A DNA stretch of 64,000 nucleotides, taken from an uncultured beta proteobacterium (GTDB taxonomy: Bacteria > Pseudomonadota > Gammaproteobacteria > Burkholderiales > Burkholderiaceae_C). A model generated the notes under the pieces. The model was given only the letters and a program-made list of their open reading frames with translations, ran no database searches and was not told the origin of the DNA. The stretch is from NCBI GenBank assembly GCA_903886275.1, contig CAISLN010000128.1, positions 1 to 64,000 of the forward strand, in the 5' to 3' direction. Below, piece after piece: positions 49,807 to 57,218 of the stretch. Within the stretch, counting starts at the first letter, position 1. Each line of letters begins with the position of its first letter. The translations under genes were made by a program, and so were the position numbers.

Positions 49807-49896
49807 GGAGCGGTGGATGAGTGGTTTAAGTCACACGCCTGGAAAGCGTGCGTGGGGTTAAACCCACCGCGGGTTCGAATCCCGCCTGCTCCGCCA
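49807..49896 (+). tRNA. tRNA-Ser(GGA), encoded CCA
   Basis: ggagcggtggatgagtggtttaagtcacacgcctggaaagcgtgcgtggggttaaacccaccgcgggttcgaatcccgcctgctccgcca; long variable arm, GGA anticodon. Confidence 0.97.
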
Positions 49897-49906
49897 GTAA
49901 GTAAGT

Positions 49907-49932
49907 AAAAATGCCCCTTCGGGGGCATTTTT
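49907..49932 (+). terminator. Rho-independent terminator after tRNA-Ser
   Basis: aaaaatgcccc-ttcg-ggggcattttt. Confidence 0.85.
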
Positions 49933-50186
49933 CGTTGTGCGACCATGAAGGTCCCCGCCGATTTATTAACGAGCTGCTTGCGACTATTTTGGGGCGATCA
50001 AGGGTGGGTGGCCTGAGCAATCCACATTTGTTCTAGGTAAGCCGGTAATTCAGCCGCCGGTTGGAAGGCGACATCTATTGTGACGCGTGGGATATGCGCA
50101 ATAAATGTTGAAGCATGGAGTCTCAATATTTGCCGTATCAATCTGTAGATATATACAAGTCGTCAACTTCAGAAAAAAGGTGTTCC

Positions 50187-50603
50187 ATGGCCATCGACGT
50201 AACCGTCCTAGCTGCAGAGGCTGCAAAAATCGGACTTAACCCTGCTGGCTATTTGCTCAGGCAAATTGTTGAAGCCACTTTAAAAAAAGTTGCACAAGCA
50301 AATGATGCATCTCCCAAGGATCTGTTGACTCTGCGCGATGACGCTGAAAGGCAGGAGTTGCAAATGCGAATGGCGGAAGCGCATGCCCGTGTGGCGCAAG
50401 AGGTTGCAATTGCAAGGCGTATCGAAACCGCAGAAGAAGTCGATATAGAAGAATCTTATGACTACAGTGGCGAAGGCCATGTGGGTGCCAATGCTGATGG
50501 CGCCGGTATGTCGTTGGGAACAGGTGGCTCCGGGCGTCGCGTAAGCCAACGCGTGTTTAAATTTCGCGGAAATACAAGTGTGACATTGCCAGTAGTGCCA
50601 TAG
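50187..50603 (+). CDS. Hypothetical protein
   Basis: MAIDVTVLAAEAAKIGLNPAGYLLRQIVEATLKKVAQ...; no family recognised. Confidence 0.6.
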   Translation: MAIDVTVLAAEAAKIGLNPAGYLLRQIVEATLKKVAQANDASPKDLLTLRDDAERQELQMRMAEAHARVAQEVAIARRIETAEEVDIEESYDYSGEGHVGANADGAGMSLGTGGSGRRVSQRVFKFRGNTSVTLPVVP

Positions 50604-50636
50604 ATGGAATTCAACTGGATTAAAAAAGGGTTTAAA

Positions 50637-51971
50637 TCATGCCGCTTTGGGTAGCCTGATTTCTACTTCCAAACCACCTTCCGGGTGGTTGCGCAAGAAA
50701 ATTAGACCGCCGTGGGAACGAATAATGTTTCTGGATATTCCGAGCCCCAAACCTGTGCCATTTTCATTGACTTCTCTACCGTTATTTAGCCGAACATGGG
50801 GATCAAAAACCCTATCAAAATCTGCTTCAGGGATGCCTCGTCCAAAGTCACGAACCAGCAGGTGGACAAAGCCTGCTTTCAAAAAGGACATGATGAGTAC
50901 ACGCCCACCGTACAAAATGCCGTTGTCAATAATGTTGCCAACGGCGCGCTCGATGGCGCGGGGTCGCGCCCAAATGGAGGCAACTTCCAGTTCCGTTTCC
51001 ACTTGAGCGCGAAGGTAGATGGGCCGCTTTGCCAAGCGCTCCACCATTTTGTCAAGCCGCACCACAGCGGCATTTTCGTGCGGCTCACCATTGCGCAAAC
51101 TGTCCAAGGCCGAGCCCACCATGTTTTGCAGCTCGTCCAAGTCCTCAGCAAATGATTGCTGTTGCTGCGAATCCTCGAGCATCTCTGTGCGCAGCATCAA
51201 GCGCGTGATGGGTGTTTTGAGCCCATGTGATATTTCCATAAATAATTGAGTTCTATCGAACATGCCTTGCACCTTCGCATCCATTTGCTGTAGTTGCAGT
51301 GCGCGGTAATTTTGCTGCTGTGCATCGACTTTAATAACCAGCAACAAAATATACAGCATGCCCATAAATATGGGAATCTTGACTGTGTATGAAAAAATCA
51401 CGGATAGGAGAACTGGGATGGTAATTTGATCGGGCCAGAAGATATGCATCAATAACGCAACTACATAACCAATCCCACTTTTGGCGACTGTCAGTAATAA
51501 TATATCTTGCCACCGTATAATCAGCAAGTTGCGACGCAAGGCCCACCGATGCACCAAGACCCCAGCTGCCACATAACAGATTCCTTCAAAAGCGCTAATC
51601 AGCGCCAAATTGGCACCGCCAAATTGAACGCGCGCCAAGAAGGTCAGCGCAAAGGCAATCAGCCCACCCGGCCAGCCACCCAAAACGCCCACGATAAATA
51701 GCAACTCGACGCGGATGTAGGGCTTAACCGGAACCATGATGAACTGAGCGACCAAGGCAGTCATAAAGTACCCGCTTATCCCCATGACGATGCCGTACCA
51801 AATTTTATTCAGAGGCTTGTAGGGGTTGAAGCCGCGCATGCTCATCAGCGTCAATGCAAAAACACCCATCAGTGCAATCATTTGCAGAATGAGCAAGGGG
51901 AATTGTGCAAGCTGACCTTGAAATGCGCCAACCATGTACGAGAGCCAATCGTCTGTTTTATGCATGGGCAA
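50637..51971 (-). CDS. Sensor histidine kinase with LytS-like multi-TM sensor, HisKA and HATPase_c
   Basis: 5TM-LytS-like N-terminus; FMEISHGLKTPITRLMLRTEML (H-box); NIIDNGILYGG (N-box); NENGTGLGLGISRNIIRSHGG (G-box). Confidence 0.85.
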   Translation of the reverse strand: MPMHKTDDWLSYMVGAFQGQLAQFPLLILQMIALMGVFALTLMSMRGFNPYKPLNKIWYGIVMGISGYFMTALVAQFIMVPVKPYIRVELLFIVGVLGGWPGGLIAFALTFLARVQFGGANLALISAFEGICYVAAGVLVHRWALRRNLLIIRWQDILLLTVAKSGIGYVVALLMHIFWPDQITIPVLLSVIFSYTVKIPIFMGMLYILLLVIKVDAQQQNYRALQLQQMDAKVQGMFDRTQLFMEISHGLKTPITRLMLRTEMLEDSQQQQSFAEDLDELQNMVGSALDSLRNGEPHENAAVVRLDKMVERLAKRPIYLRAQVETELEVASIWARPRAIERAVGNIIDNGILYGGRVLIMSFLKAGFVHLLVRDFGRGIPEADFDRVFDPHVRLNNGREVNENGTGLGLGISRNIIRSHGGLIFLRNHPEGGLEVEIRLPKAA

Positions 51972-52582
51972 CTAGGGCTTGCCGGCGAGCACCGAAATGG
52001 CTGGACATTGAACGGCTAGGATGTGGGGGGACACTGAACAAACCAAACATAAAACTCCATAAACTGTGTCGAAACGCAAGACCCGGCGAGCCAGCCAATA
52101 ATCGAACGGAATTGAGGGGCCAGAGAGACACCTTGGAGGGGTATAGGTGGTCGATTGATTTGGGCCGGCAAGGATTGCATTCGGGCGGACAATCGCGCCC
52201 AAGAAAATAGCCCGTCAACAACGAGGCCAAAGCCCAAGGACCGCGACGTCCAACCAATGGATGAAACCTGGCAAAGCGCACAGAGCGAGTGGGTGGCGCG
52301 CTCGTTGCCCATGGCAGCGTGGCCACAGGTTATGACGCAGATTCATGCAGCGCGTCAGGCGAGAGGGGCGGCGGCAACTTTTAAATCGGTATACCTTGCG
52401 CCGCGAGGCCTTGCACTTCGGATTTGGTGCCGCCCTGCCAATAGAATGAACCCCCAGCGGCACATAAGCCTTGAGGGAGCGTAAATGCGTGTTTTTGTCT
52501 TGCCATTGGGCGGGTTTTGCGGAATTTCAACGGCGCGTGACGCCGTCCTCGCATGGGCGCGGCTTATTGGCTCGCCTGCACA

Positions 52583-55500
52583 ATGAGTGGACTTTCCGAC
52601 CTATTGGTCAATTTGCTGGACTACGTGGTAGAGCAGTCCAAAGATATCGATCCCAATGGCTTCAAGCTCACGGGTACCCATGAATTTGTACGCTATCAGA
52701 CCAGCCTGCAGGGCCTGCCGGGCGTGGACTTCGACAAGAAGGTCGAAGGTGACCACATCTGGATGCGCGTTGAGCGATTGACCGAAATTGCGCCGCCGCC
52801 TCTCCAACCCCAAGAACTGCAGCGCTTCTTTACGATATCAAACAGTCCCAGCGGGCCCGAGCCGTCCATCAATGAGGCGGCACTGAGCCACAGCATCGCC
52901 ACAGACTGCGCAAAGCGCACCGAGTCTGAAGCGCAGTGCCTGGCCAATGCCCGGCGCACAGGGGTCAGAGAAACGTTTGCGCAGTACAAGCCAAGCTGGC
53001 TTGCGTGGGCGCAAGGGGAGCGGCCCAGGCGAGTCGCCATAGGGCTGTATGGTGAGTTGTTTTCCCTGAAGCACCAAATGGAAGCCCAAGAGACCGCCAA
53101 GCCCCATGAACTGGTCTGGGGCATGGGGATTACCTCCTGGAAGATTGCGAGTGAAGGGCGCAGCGTCGATTTTCAATACCCGTTGATTACGCAGGCCATG
53201 GAGCTCTCCATCGAAGACCAGACCATGGCCATGGTCTTGAGCCCAAGGGCGGTCAACCCCCGGTTTGAGTTTGATGCGTTTTCTGCTTGCAATGTACCTG
53301 GCACCCCGGAGGTCGAAAGGGCATGCAAGGATGCGCTGGCAAAAAATCCGGATGCGCAAATTACGCCTTTTGACAGGGCCAGCGTTGAGCCGCTGCTGCG
53401 ATTGGTTGCCGGCAGCCTGCACGAGCGCGGGAAATTTTTGTCTGGCCAGGACCAGCCATTGGCCGCCACCGAAGACCTGGTCGTCACCGATGCCTGGGTG
53501 ATTGTGTCGCGTCCACGTCCCAACAATTACCTCCTGGAAGACATTGAGCGTTTGAAGGGACGCATCAAGGGTGGGGCCCTTATTCCGGCGGGATGCCTGG
53601 CGTTGGTGACGCCGCCGCTGGACCATGCCGTCGACTTTCAACCCATCGCGTTCAGGGGCTTGTCGGGCATGCGCGCTGGCATCGCAGGCTCAGCGCCGCA
53701 AGAACTGTATTTCCCCCTGCCGTACAACCACGAGCAGGTCACCATCGTCGAGCAGTTGGAGCGCTCGGACGGAATGACGGTCCAAGGCCCACCGGGCACC
53801 GGCAAGACCCACACCATTGCCAACATTGTTTGCCATTACCTGGCAACTGGACGAAAGGTGCTGGTCACCTCCAAGGGCGAGCAGGCCCTGGAGGTTTTGC
53901 AATCCAAGATTCCCCCCGAAGTGCGCCCACTGACGGTTGCGCTTATTTCGGGCGACAGGGAAGGGATGCGGCAGTTTCAGCAGGCGATTGAAACCATCAT
54001 CCACAACGTCTCGCAGCTCAACCCAGAGGTTTCGCGCACGGAAATTGCGCGCCTTTTGAGCGCGATAGACCGGGCCCATGCAGAACTCGCCACGCTTGAC
54101 AAGCGGGTGGACGACATCGCGATGTCGCAGTTGTCAGACCTTGAAGTGGACGGCGTGACCATGCGTGCGCAGAAAATGGCGGAGCTGGTGGTGCAAGGCA
54201 AGGCCCGTCATGCCTGGTTTGACGATGTCCTGTCACTGGACGCGCAGCATGCGCCGCCGGTTGCGGCCTCAGAAGTCGCACAGGCCAGAGAGGCGCGACG
54301 CCGCATAGGGGCGGACTTGGCGTACGTGAATGCCAAGATTCCCGCCAGTGCCACTTTGTTGCCCGCTGCCGAAATGGAAATCCTGCACAACGTGCTGGTC
54401 AGCATTCGGGAAATGGAAGAAACCGAGGCAAGAGGCGGATTGCTTTCATTGCGGGCAAGCACCCCTGAAGTGCTGGCCGAGGTCCGCAAGTTGTTAACGG
54501 CTGTCGAAGAAGCGGCCGCACTGGCCCGTGAGTTGGAGCAAACCGGCGCACTGTGGACCTTTGACTTGCGCAGGAAGTGCCGACAAAGTGACTTCGACAG
54601 TGAGCGCAAGGCCCTGGAAGCGCTGTTCGATGAAATGCAGGCCTTGATAGAGGCCCGCGCAAACTTCCTTATTCGGCCGGTCGAAGTGACGCCGGACGCC
54701 ATTGGCCTGACCAAGTTCCGCGAGGCGCTGCATCGCGCAAGTGAGACCGGTAAGCCCTTTGGCCTGATGTCATTCGGGGCGAGCAACATCAAGGCCCTTG
54801 TTCAAGAGGTCCGAGTCGCTGGACTGGCGCCGGCAAGCACTGGGGATTGGCAGCATGTGCTGGATTACGCCAAGCTGCATGACCGGGTGCTGTCCTTCAG
54901 TGCCAGGTGGAACCAGTTTGCCGACCTGTTGTCTATTCCCAGGGTGAGCGGTGGCGTGCAAGCCCTGCGCGGGATTGAGCTCACCACGGTGGCTGCGCGC
55001 AAGGCGCATTGCCTGGCCACCCACCATGACGTGCATCTGCCCTTGTTGGCCGAGCGTGTATTTGCCAAGGCGCCGAGCGCGCAGCTGCAAGGGACCTCGG
55101 CCGAGATCCTCTCGGTAAGAGAGCACTTGCGGGCGCATTTGACGCGTGCGGAACTTGCCAAAGCGGCAACCCAGCTTGCCACCTTGCAGGAAAAATTGGC
55201 GGGCACAGGGGGGCAGGTCAGCGATGCACTTCGCAGCTTCGCCCACGAGACGCTGGGCAACAGCGATTGGCCGGTGCAGAGGGTGGTGGCAAGGTATGCA
55301 GAATTGCTCAGCGAGGTGCGCCGCATTGAGGCCCTGTTGCCCGACATGCAGACCATCCTCCATTTGTCAAAAGCCTTCCGCCTTGCCGGTGCGGAAAAAT
55401 TCGCGGTGCGCGTCACGCAATGCCCCGTTGGCGCTTCGGGCGAAGACAGCGTTTTGCCCCTTTCTTGGCGCGACGCCTGGAACTGGGCAAGGGTTCAATC

Positions 55501-57127
55501 GCACTTGGACAAGATCGAGGCGCGTGAGGAATTGCTGACGCTGGCCAGCCGCCGCCGTGAGCTGGAGGCCGGCCTGGCCAAGCTTTACGAAAACATGGTG
55601 TCCAAGTCGGCCTGGTTGATGACCAAGACGAGCGCATCGCCCAAGGTGCTCTCGGCGCTGGAGACCTACAAGACCGCGATTCGCCGCATTGGGCAGGGCA
55701 CCGGATCGAATGCCACCCGCCATAGACGTGACGCCCAGCGCGCCATGGAGGATGCCCAAGGGGCAGTTCCTTGCTGGATCATGAGCCACAACAAGGTGTC
55801 TGAAACCCTGCCCGCGCTCTTGGGCAGCTTCGATTTGGTGGTGGTGGATGAAGCCAGCCAGTCCGACCTGTGGGCCCTGCCGGCGGTGTTGCGCGGCAAG
55901 AAGATATTGGTGGTGGGCGATGACAAGCAGGTCTCTCCCGACGGCAGCTTTATCGCTGCAACCCACATTCAGTCCCTCAAAGACCGGTACCTGGCCCATC
56001 AGCCCTATTCGGCGGTCCTCACGCCTGAGAAGTCGCTCTACGACATTGCGTCCACCGTATTTGCCGCCCAAAAGGTCATGCTCAGGGAGCACTTTCGCTG
56101 CGTGCCGGCCATCATCGCTTACAGCAACCAGTTCTACGACGGGTTCATGCAGCCGCTGCGCATCCCCAAGGAGTCTGAGCGCATAGACCCGCCGCTGGTG
56201 GATATCTATGTCCCGTCGGGCAACCGCAACAACAAGGACATCAATCGCCCTGAAGCGCAGGCCATCGCCGACGAAATCACTGCCATTCTCCACAATAAGA
56301 AATTGGCCAACAGAACCCTGGGCGTTGTGTCGCTCTTGGGCCCCGACCAGGCCAAATATATTGACACTCTGGTGCGCTCGCGCTGCGATGCGGCGGAGCT
56401 GATGCGGCGCAAATTCGAATGTGGCGATGCCCGCGTGTTTCAGGGCAGCGAACGCGACATCATGTTTTTGTCGATGGTGGTGGACCCCAATAATTGCAGG
56501 GCAGCCTCTGGCAATACCGCCGAACAGCGTTTCAATGTGGCGGGCAGCCGGGCGCGTGACCGCATGTACCTGGTGCGCTCGGTGAAGCTGAGCGACCTGT
56601 CCCACTTGGACTTGCGCGCCGGCCTGTTGGGGCACTTCAGCAAACCGTCCGAGGGCACATTGGAAGACAACAAAAACCTGATCGACCTGTGCGAGTCCGG
56701 GTTTGAGAAGCAGGTCTACAGCGCGTTGGTGGACCAGGGTTACCGCGTCATCCCGCAGGTGAAGGCCGGAGCCTTTCGCATCGACATGGTGGTCGAAGGC
56801 GAGCGCGACGCCAGGCTGGCCATTGAATGCGACGGCGACGCGTTCCACGGCCCGGACCGCTGGGCCGCCGACATGGGCCGTCAACGCGTGCTGGAACGCG
56901 CTGGCTGGACCTTTTGGCGCTGCTTCGCGTCCACCTGGTCTTTGCGCCGGGAGGAAGTGATGCAAGAGCTGTTGCAGCGGCTGGGTGCCATGGGCATTGA
57001 GCCACTCGGCACGCTGGAGAAGACCCCCTCCCCGGTGGAGTACCGCGAATGGTCACCGCCGCCCAAGGCGCAAGGGCCAGACCACGCCAGAGACCTATTG
57101 GAGCAGGCGGTTTTGACGGCCATGTAA
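52583..57127 (+). CDS. Large SF1 (COG1112-like) helicase with C-terminal Vsr/DUF559-like nuclease domain
   Basis: Walker A MTVQGPPGTGKTHTIANIV; motif II DLVVVDEASQSDLWALP; motif III ILVVGDDKQVSP; FNVAGSRARDRMYLVRSV; C-terminal FEKQVYSALVDQGYRVIPQVKAGAFRIDMVVEG..LAIECDGDAFHG..D..RQRVLERAGWTFWRCF. Confidence 0.88.
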   Translation: MSGLSDLLVNLLDYVVEQSKDIDPNGFKLTGTHEFVRYQTSLQGLPGVDFDKKVEGDHIWMRVERLTEIAPPPLQPQELQRFFTISNSPSGPEPSINEAALSHSIATDCAKRTESEAQCLANARRTGVRETFAQYKPSWLAWAQGERPRRVAIGLYGELFSLKHQMEAQETAKPHELVWGMGITSWKIASEGRSVDFQYPLITQAMELSIEDQTMAMVLSPRAVNPRFEFDAFSACNVPGTPEVERACKDALAKNPDAQITPFDRASVEPLLRLVAGSLHERGKFLSGQDQPLAATEDLVVTDAWVIVSRPRPNNYLLEDIERLKGRIKGGALIPAGCLALVTPPLDHAVDFQPIAFRGLSGMRAGIAGSAPQELYFPLPYNHEQVTIVEQLERSDGMTVQGPPGTGKTHTIANIVCHYLATGRKVLVTSKGEQALEVLQSKIPPEVRPLTVALISGDREGMRQFQQAIETIIHNVSQLNPEVSRTEIARLLSAIDRAHAELATLDKRVDDIAMSQLSDLEVDGVTMRAQKMAELVVQGKARHAWFDDVLSLDAQHAPPVAASEVAQAREARRRIGADLAYVNAKIPASATLLPAAEMEILHNVLVSIREMEETEARGGLLSLRASTPEVLAEVRKLLTAVEEAAALARELEQTGALWTFDLRRKCRQSDFDSERKALEALFDEMQALIEARANFLIRPVEVTPDAIGLTKFREALHRASETGKPFGLMSFGASNIKALVQEVRVAGLAPASTGDWQHVLDYAKLHDRVLSFSARWNQFADLLSIPRVSGGVQALRGIELTTVAARKAHCLATHHDVHLPLLAERVFAKAPSAQLQGTSAEILSVREHLRAHLTRAELAKAATQLATLQEKLAGTGGQVSDALRSFAHETLGNSDWPVQRVVARYAELLSEVRRIEALLPDMQTILHLSKAFRLAGAEKFAVRVTQCPVGASGEDSVLPLSWRDAWNWARVQSHLDKIEAREELLTLASRRRELEAGLAKLYENMVSKSAWLMTKTSASPKVLSALETYKTAIRRIGQGTGSNATRHRRDAQRAMEDAQGAVPCWIMSHNKVSETLPALLGSFDLVVVDEASQSDLWALPAVLRGKKILVVGDDKQVSPDGSFIAATHIQSLKDRYLAHQPYSAVLTPEKSLYDIASTVFAAQKVMLREHFRCVPAIIAYSNQFYDGFMQPLRIPKESERIDPPLVDIYVPSGNRNNKDINRPEAQAIADEITAILHNKKLANRTLGVVSLLGPDQAKYIDTLVRSRCDAAELMRRKFECGDARVFQGSERDIMFLSMVVDPNNCRAASGNTAEQRFNVAGSRARDRMYLVRSVKLSDLSHLDLRAGLLGHFSKPSEGTLEDNKNLIDLCESGFEKQVYSALVDQGYRVIPQVKAGAFRIDMVVEGERDARLAIECDGDAFHGPDRWAADMGRQRVLERAGWTFWRCFASTWSLRREEVMQELLQRLGAMGIEPLGTLEKTPSPVEYREWSPPPKAQGPDHARDLLEQAVLTAM

Positions 57128-57162
57128 GGGCTGGGTCCAACGCATTGGCACCAACACAACAT

Positions 57163-57196
57163 CGGGCCCAAAAAAAACCCAGCCGCGGCTGGGTTT
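57163..57196 (-). terminator. Terminator of SPFH/NfeD operon
   Basis: 22-bp perfect palindrome aaacccagccgcggctgggttt (57175-57196) followed on the minus strand by a T-run. Confidence 0.75.
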
Positions 57197-57218
57197 AATC
57201 GATCGCTTGTAGCGCTTG

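Follow-up and report, generated by a model that had tools for sequence, protein, structure and literature searches.

A compact SF1 helicase–nuclease gene at a tRNA-Ser insertion hotspot in an uncultured beta proteobacterium, probably a single-gene immunity protein

Relationship to described helicase–nuclease systems

Proteins that join a superfamily 1 (SF1) helicase to a Vsr-like nuclease have been described in several settings. The founding member of the nuclease domain, MTES_1575 of Microbacterium testaceum, is fused to an SF-I helicase and also bears HEPN, transglutaminase and two winged helix-turn-helix (wHTH; DUF3320) domains (PMC3710099). In the CoCoNuT systems the UPF1-like helicase CnuH has a large helical insertion after Walker A and an N-terminal wHTH, works with CnuB and CnuC (McrBC) and with coiled-coil or Hsp70-like partners, and in Type III-B carries a fused Vsr-like nuclease (PMC11090510). 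Mokosh carries a phospholipase D (PLD) nuclease (PMC10952713). Here we describe a gene at coordinates 52583–57127 (plus strand) of a 64,000-nucleotide stretch (the window) of an uncultured beta proteobacterium (contig CAISLN010000128.1), which encodes a 1514-amino acid (aa) SF1 (UPF1-like) helicase–nuclease and is likely a single-gene immunity protein. Its architecture is not new as such, being shared by Hhe, ProA, PDC-S37, MTES_1575 and the CoCoNuT III-B CnuH.

The PADLOC search returned defence-model matches, and the top library matches of the window protein are the anti-phage models ProA and Hhe together with the candidate PDC-S37, in alignments spanning helicase and nuclease. PDC-S37 (PDLC05009), a PADLOC candidate single-gene defence family, is the best PADLOC match of every family member tested (210–250 bits; 2.1e-66 for the window protein). 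The alignment takes in RecA2, the nuclease and a portion of the helical arm; every member matches the 1550-position model only in part, the best stretch for the window protein being positions 706–1339 of 1550, with the N-terminal half unmatched. Because both clades of the family (A, with the window gene, and B; see below) and distant plasmid members score alike, and in part only, the family reads provisionally as a sister to PDC-S37 and not as PDC-S37 itself. ProA (NCBIfam NF058533) is collinear with the window protein over the helicase, helical insertion and nuclease (query 381–1479), and its model of 1903 positions is longer at both the N- and C-terminus; membership was rejected at 223 bits (204–278 in relatives) against an NCBIfam equivalog cut-off of 1500 bits. 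A literature search found no paper describing either PDC-S37 or ProA. Hhe (NF042953/PDLC02194), from Klebsiella plasmids, combines an SF1 helicase with the same nuclease type, at about 30% identity across the C-terminal 28%; membership was likewise rejected (167 versus 2000 bits), and DUF4011, which is present in Hhe, gives no match in the window protein at E<=1.

The layout of CnuH III-B, with its helical insertion and fused Vsr-like nuclease, is that of the window protein, although the two are likened by description and not by sequence. None of the CnuH partner genes (CnuB/CnuC, coiled-coil or Hsp70-like) adjoins the window gene, and assignment to CoCoNuT Type III-B by operon was rejected since there is no adjoining McrB/McrC-type gene. 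The HEPN, transglutaminase and DUF3320 wHTH domains of MTES_1575 were not detected in the window protein. An earlier, sequence-only reading had compared the protein with Mokosh type II, noting that its terminal domain differs from the Mokosh PLD. The difference is borne out, as no PLD family was detected and an MTES_1575 nuclease stands in its place; Mokosh is, however, not the nearest comparison. MkoC scores 114 bits in a match confined to the RecA2 region of the SF1 helicase, and membership in Mokosh type II was rejected. By analogy the window protein is predicted to work like Hhe, ProA or CnuH and to belong to a separate sister family. The fused SF1–Vsr design, known from the multi-gene CoCoNuT systems and the larger Hhe and ProA, thus also exists as a compact single gene, so that the coupling of motor and nuclease could be studied in one polypeptide.

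Reading frame, domains and catalytic motifs

The open reading frame (ORF) extends from 52553 to 57127 on the plus strand and encodes 1524 aa including residues ahead of the ATG; residue numbers throughout are those of this ORF and not of the 1514-aa protein. Alignments with homologues begin at the ATG at 52583, corresponding to residue 11, and the start and length of about 1514 aa given by the sequence-only reading are therefore right. Comparison with the nearest relatives gives a ratio of nonsynonymous to synonymous substitution (dN/dS) of ~0.09 overall; the values are 0.015–0.055 for the helicase core, 0.06 for the nuclease and 0.11–0.13 for the helical arm and N-terminus. The gene, which is intact, evolves under purifying selection, and its two non-catalytic regions are the fastest-evolving.

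Pfam identifies AAA_11 (from residue 391), AAA_12 (1162–1341) and REase_MTES_1575 (PF18741; 1384–1477, E 3.1e-32). The first half of RecA1 (53693–53962) contains the Q-motif region N392/E394/Q395, Walker A GPPGTGKT (412–419) and motif Ia. The second half together with RecA2 (55688–56632) contains VVDEASQSDL around 1099–1106 (DEASQ 1099–1103), GDDKQ (1122–1126), EHFR (1179–1182), FQGSER (1296–1301), NVAGSRARDRM (1328–1338) and the overlapping AGSRARDRMYLVRS (1330–1343). The SF1 Q-motif, Walker A and B and motifs III–VI are thus all present and in order, as in UPF1-like SF1 helicases. The nuclease match (56702–56983) scores 111 bits against a gathering cut-off of 38.2, and covers the full 96-position model; no second copy of PF18741 was found in the genome. 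Within this Vsr-like PD-(D/E)XK domain we locate RIDMVV (D1411), IECDGDAFHG (E1425, D1427), D1440, RQ (1443–1444) and LERAGW. Of the two affinities proposed for it from the sequence, the Vsr type stands, and DUF559 falls below the Pfam cut-off (16.3 versus 20.6 bits).

Across 81 aligned homologues, conservation reaches 97% or more at 229 residues. These include N392/E394/Q395, GPPGTGKT, DEASQ, GD..Q, EHFR, FQG.ER and N.A.SRA.DRM in the helicase, and D1411, E1425-x-D1427-G-D1429, D1440, R1443-Q1444 and GW.FWRCF in the nuclease. The motifs quoted in the sequence-only reading, those of the nuclease included, are all present; their near-invariance in the homologues, the Pfam matches to both domains and the dN/dS of 0.09 show that they are not chance occurrences.

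Structure models

Profile searches of PDB show that the nearest solved helicases are UPF1, SEN1, SMUBP-2 and DNA2. The N-terminal region (residues ~11–380; 52583–53690) has a long helix with beta elements in an AlphaFold2 model of residues 11–400 (predicted local distance difference test, pLDDT, 88.5; predicted template-modelling score, pTM, 0.75), which is less certain from about residue 360 on, RecA1 being cut away in this construct. Foldseek finds no PDB fold match for this region at E<=0.001, and no Pfam family matches it. Weak sequence matches to retroviral capsid (E 0.002) were judged to be chance, as the fold search lends them no support. In the model of residues 376–1140, RecA1 is split between motif Ia and motif II by an all-helical, coiled-coil-like insertion of ~570 residues (residues ~471–1045; 53963–55687); pLDDT is 85.7 and pTM 0.47, such that placement of the parts relative to each other is uncertain. 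A structure search shows that the RecA part resembles UPF1/IGHMBP2. Likeness of the middle region to SMC/Rad50 was rejected, the matches being to generic coiled coils with TM scores of about 0.1.

Distribution and horizontal transfer

Matches at E<=1e-30 are present in 12 of 149 relatives. Of 399 genomes sampled from the phylum, three have a full-length homologue (1e-100), and the genome of the window is one of these. Within the genus, family-level matches occur in G000, G020, G066 and G086; besides the window genome, this amounts to three of some 90 congeners, one copy being broken. The broken homologue, in G086 (L018, the same gene as L004/L014), has an in-frame stop near residue 348, which fits expectation for a dispensable gene. 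The sequence-only reading would have fallen had the gene been conserved core in the genus, and this is not so: its patchy occurrence and the empty site in congeners lead us to reject a core or housekeeping gene.

There are 129 loci in species-representative genomes of Pseudomonadota, Acidobacteriota, Nitrospirota and some metagenome-assembled genomes (MAGs) labelled Chloroflexi, Chlorobi or Bacteroidota, labels that may be wrong. The family is also found on many plasmids, among them plasmids of Variovorax, Acinetobacter, Sphingobium, Microvirga and Streptomyces. The nearest homologues of the window gene come from Rhodoferax MAGs, and by this the window genome looks to be related to Rhodoferax. 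These loci form a coherent helicase–nuclease family that Pfam, PADLOC and NCBIfam reach via distant relatives only. Three MAG contigs labelled Bordetella parapertussis (L058), Klebsiella pneumoniae (L087) and Chryseobacterium gleum (L052) contain members near those of environmental bacteria, and the labels look doubtful. A FastTree phylogeny, for which support values are local only, splits mainly into clade A, to which the window gene belongs, and clade B, at about 39% identity; bacterial classes are mixed within the tree.

A 4.7-kb copy is 97.5% identical among Tepidiphilus, Silanimonas and Dyella, a case of recent transfer between classes. The nearest relatives of the window gene share only 52435–57040 (plus strand), comprising ~150 bp upstream and the gene with a variable C-terminal tail, and their flanks differ; the transferred unit is therefore essentially the gene and its upstream region. 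The window gene is thus horizontally acquired and mobile. An IMG/VR scan found no relative and phage records gave distant fragments only, and we reject its assignment as a prophage gene.

Neighbours and partners in relatives

On the Acinetobacter plasmids p3ABAYE, pYUSHP14-1 and p_ajICE_NC a BREX-1 cluster ends in a homologue, which is codirectional with brxL and lies 64 bp downstream of it. At the start of its part on nucleases, a survey of BREX auxiliary nucleases names restriction endonuclease (REase) fusions to superfamily 2 (SF2) helicases and not an SF1–Vsr fusion (PMC12839542). In the Acinetobacter plasmid BREX-1 loci L198, L200 and L201 the N-terminal extension of the helicase–nuclease appears winged-helix-like by eye; between pglX and pglZ, L200 and L201 also have DUF262 inserted, and L200 has RecQ and DprA there as well. 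Elsewhere, Sphingobium plasmids have a longer, DUF3320-bearing homologue downstream of genes for a methyltransferase and a restriction endonuclease, and one Variovorax plasmid has the homologue near GIY-YIG nuclease and AbiE genes. On another plasmid, genes with the annotations AAA ATPase and DUF4194 are a few kb away from it, a pair that we take to suggest a Wadjet-like cluster.

Of the 18 clade B loci whose flanks are long enough, 10 have, downstream, a gene encoding a ~200-aa protein with a degenerate C-terminal J-domain, usually overlapping the helicase–nuclease gene by 4 bp (examples are L077:4748–5344, L081:12476–13075 and L085:12461–12997). Matches to Pfam DnaJ (6e-4 to 9e-3) are under the cut-off, and the HPD motif is retained in L077 and L091. 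No such gene occurs at any of 56 clade A loci, and the window gene is also without one. Because bNACHT25 gives a precedent for DnaJ-dependent sensing (PMC12169576), this J-like partner is of interest, and together with the BREX-operon relatives it provides leads on sensing and on auxiliary BREX nuclease effectors.

A gene for a ribbon-helix-helix (RHH) protein overlaps the helicase start upstream, with strong matches in six of 18 clade B loci and in four clade A records, of which L022 and L196 are one strain; the strong matches include L022, L053, L060, L081, L083, L084, L085, L089 and L197. Weaker, decayed-looking traces are present in six further clade A loci. A search upstream of the window gene found no RHH gene and no match to a sigma-70-like promoter. 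A 33-aa ORF that ends at the ATGA lacks conservation among relatives. The gene is indeed stand-alone in the window genome, as the sequence-only reading supposed, but the description does not extend to the whole family, given the J-domain and RHH partners and the Acinetobacter BREX operons.

Proposed function and alternatives

We consider it likely, on the sequence evidence, that the window gene encodes a horizontally acquired single-gene immunity protein whose targets are phages or other mobile DNA. The domains and invariant motifs, the nearest solved helicases, the anti-phage models among the top library matches, the patchy distribution, the empty site and the other cargo found at it, interclass transfer, placement with BREX and restriction genes in relatives, the defence-model-rich neighbours of clade A and the dN/dS of 0.09 all suggest this, and point to a helicase–nuclease that is real and mobile and probably anti-phage. 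A UPF1/DNA2-type SF1 motor would load on an invader's exposed single strand (at replication forks, transcripts or ends) and translocate, driven by ATP; the N-terminal region and the helical arm in RecA1 may sense or clamp the substrate, and the tethered Vsr-type nuclease would cut the strand handled by the motor. The outcome would be destruction of the invader's nucleic acid, or also the host's if the nuclease is unrestrained. Single-stranded DNA (ssDNA) and RNA are both possible as substrate because UPF1-like motors handle both, and the CoCoNuT authors favour RNA as the substrate of CoCoNuT systems (PMC11090510); we infer the nature of the substrate, the activation step and the outcome for the cell alike. 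Hachiman, whose helicase detects exposed DNA and governs a nuclease, is a working precedent (PMC12278908).

The 137 clade A neighbours match 110 PADLOC models at 1e-15 (including Septu PtuA/PtuB, pAgo, JetA and PDC-S14) versus 20 for 132 control ORFs, which favours an immunity function. Several points weigh against it. These are counts of models and not of genes, one protein may count many times, and the control ORFs come from stretches of one genome. The gene-neighbourhood check shows relatives to be patchy, mobile and defence-associated; the window gene itself has no further defence gene beside it, the neighbours being an orphan histidine kinase, the tRNA-Ser, an SPFH/NfeD pair and housekeeping genes. 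UPF1/DNA2-type helicases also act in repair and RNA metabolism, and the closest solved structures, together with the strong purifying selection, would suit an accessory, horizontally travelling DNA repair or RNA-surveillance helicase–nuclease (DNA2/UPF1-like) acting on host replication or transcription stress. We regard this as improbable in view of the very patchy distribution with empty sites, the placement of relatives with BREX and restriction genes, and nearest named families that are anti-phage proteins.

The target may instead be a competing plasmid or integrative element, the gene being mobile-element cargo for excluding it. This differs from the immunity reading in its target alone and is compatible with it; the large plasmids of Variovorax, Acinetobacter, Sphingobium and Streptomyces that carry the family, the use of the tRNA hotspot by integrative elements, and the absence of a relative in the viral contigs scanned, with distant fragments only in phage records, speak for it. 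The most regular partner, BREX, is nevertheless an anti-phage system, and we give an exclusively inter-element role little chance. Somewhat less improbable, though still unlikely, is a toxin-like abortive system, in which the helicase–nuclease is a poison checked by the upstream RHH protein as repressor or antitoxin and freed on infection; the window copy would have lost the RHH gene and now be constitutive or controlled otherwise. Overlap of the RHH gene with the helicase start in both clades, and the weaker, probably decayed traces elsewhere, are as such a system would predict, whereas most clade A members, the window's included, are without an intact RHH gene and still have an intact helicase–nuclease. 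This scheme overlaps with the immunity protein that we favour, the differences lying in control and in the fate of the cell.

Taking immunity as the function, we tentatively raise the possibility that the family makes up a branch of helicase–nuclease immunity that is linked to chaperones and so far undescribed. The ancestral operon would have comprised an RHH regulator, the helicase–nuclease and a J-domain-like adaptor, perhaps reporting phage proteins via host Hsp70; the window lineage would then have come down to one self-sufficient gene whose N-terminal fold is new, and in Acinetobacter a relative would have been recruited as an extra BREX nuclease effector.

Genomic setting

The gene order in the window is a tRNA-Ser(GGA) (49807–49896, plus strand), a variable insert of ~7.3 kb (49897–57215) with the helicase–nuclease gene, and the SPFH/NfeD pair. 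In congeners such as G007, G049 and G077 only 57–100 bp separate the tRNA-Ser and the SPFH gene (the match to the tRNA in G007 ends at 2470047 and that to SPFH starts at 2470107; G049, G077, G020 and G058 are similar), and other same-genus genomes have differing inserts of 1–60 kb at this point. The interval is an insertion hotspot in the genus, with the tRNA as its left edge. No integrase was recognised within the window insert, no repeat of the tRNA-Ser 3' end that could be an attachment (att) repeat is present at its right edge, and no clear flanking repeats surround it; Rfam and tandem-repeat scans of the insert returned only the tRNA.

Besides the helicase–nuclease gene the insert contains a 162-aa ORF (50115–50603, plus strand), without credible Pfam match, in its low-G+C part, the G+C content falling to 49% at 50–52 kb compared with ~62% in the surroundings. 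On the opposite strand (50637–51971) is an orphan membrane histidine kinase (HisKA, HATPase_c and a weak 5TM-5TMR_LYT match) with no adjoining response regulator seen. Elsewhere in the genus, inserts L156 and L158 at this point begin with an apparent tyrosine integrase, as read from the sequence, and the cargo across L155–L174 includes apparent integrases, metal-resistance-like genes and resistance-nodulation-division (RND)-type pump genes.

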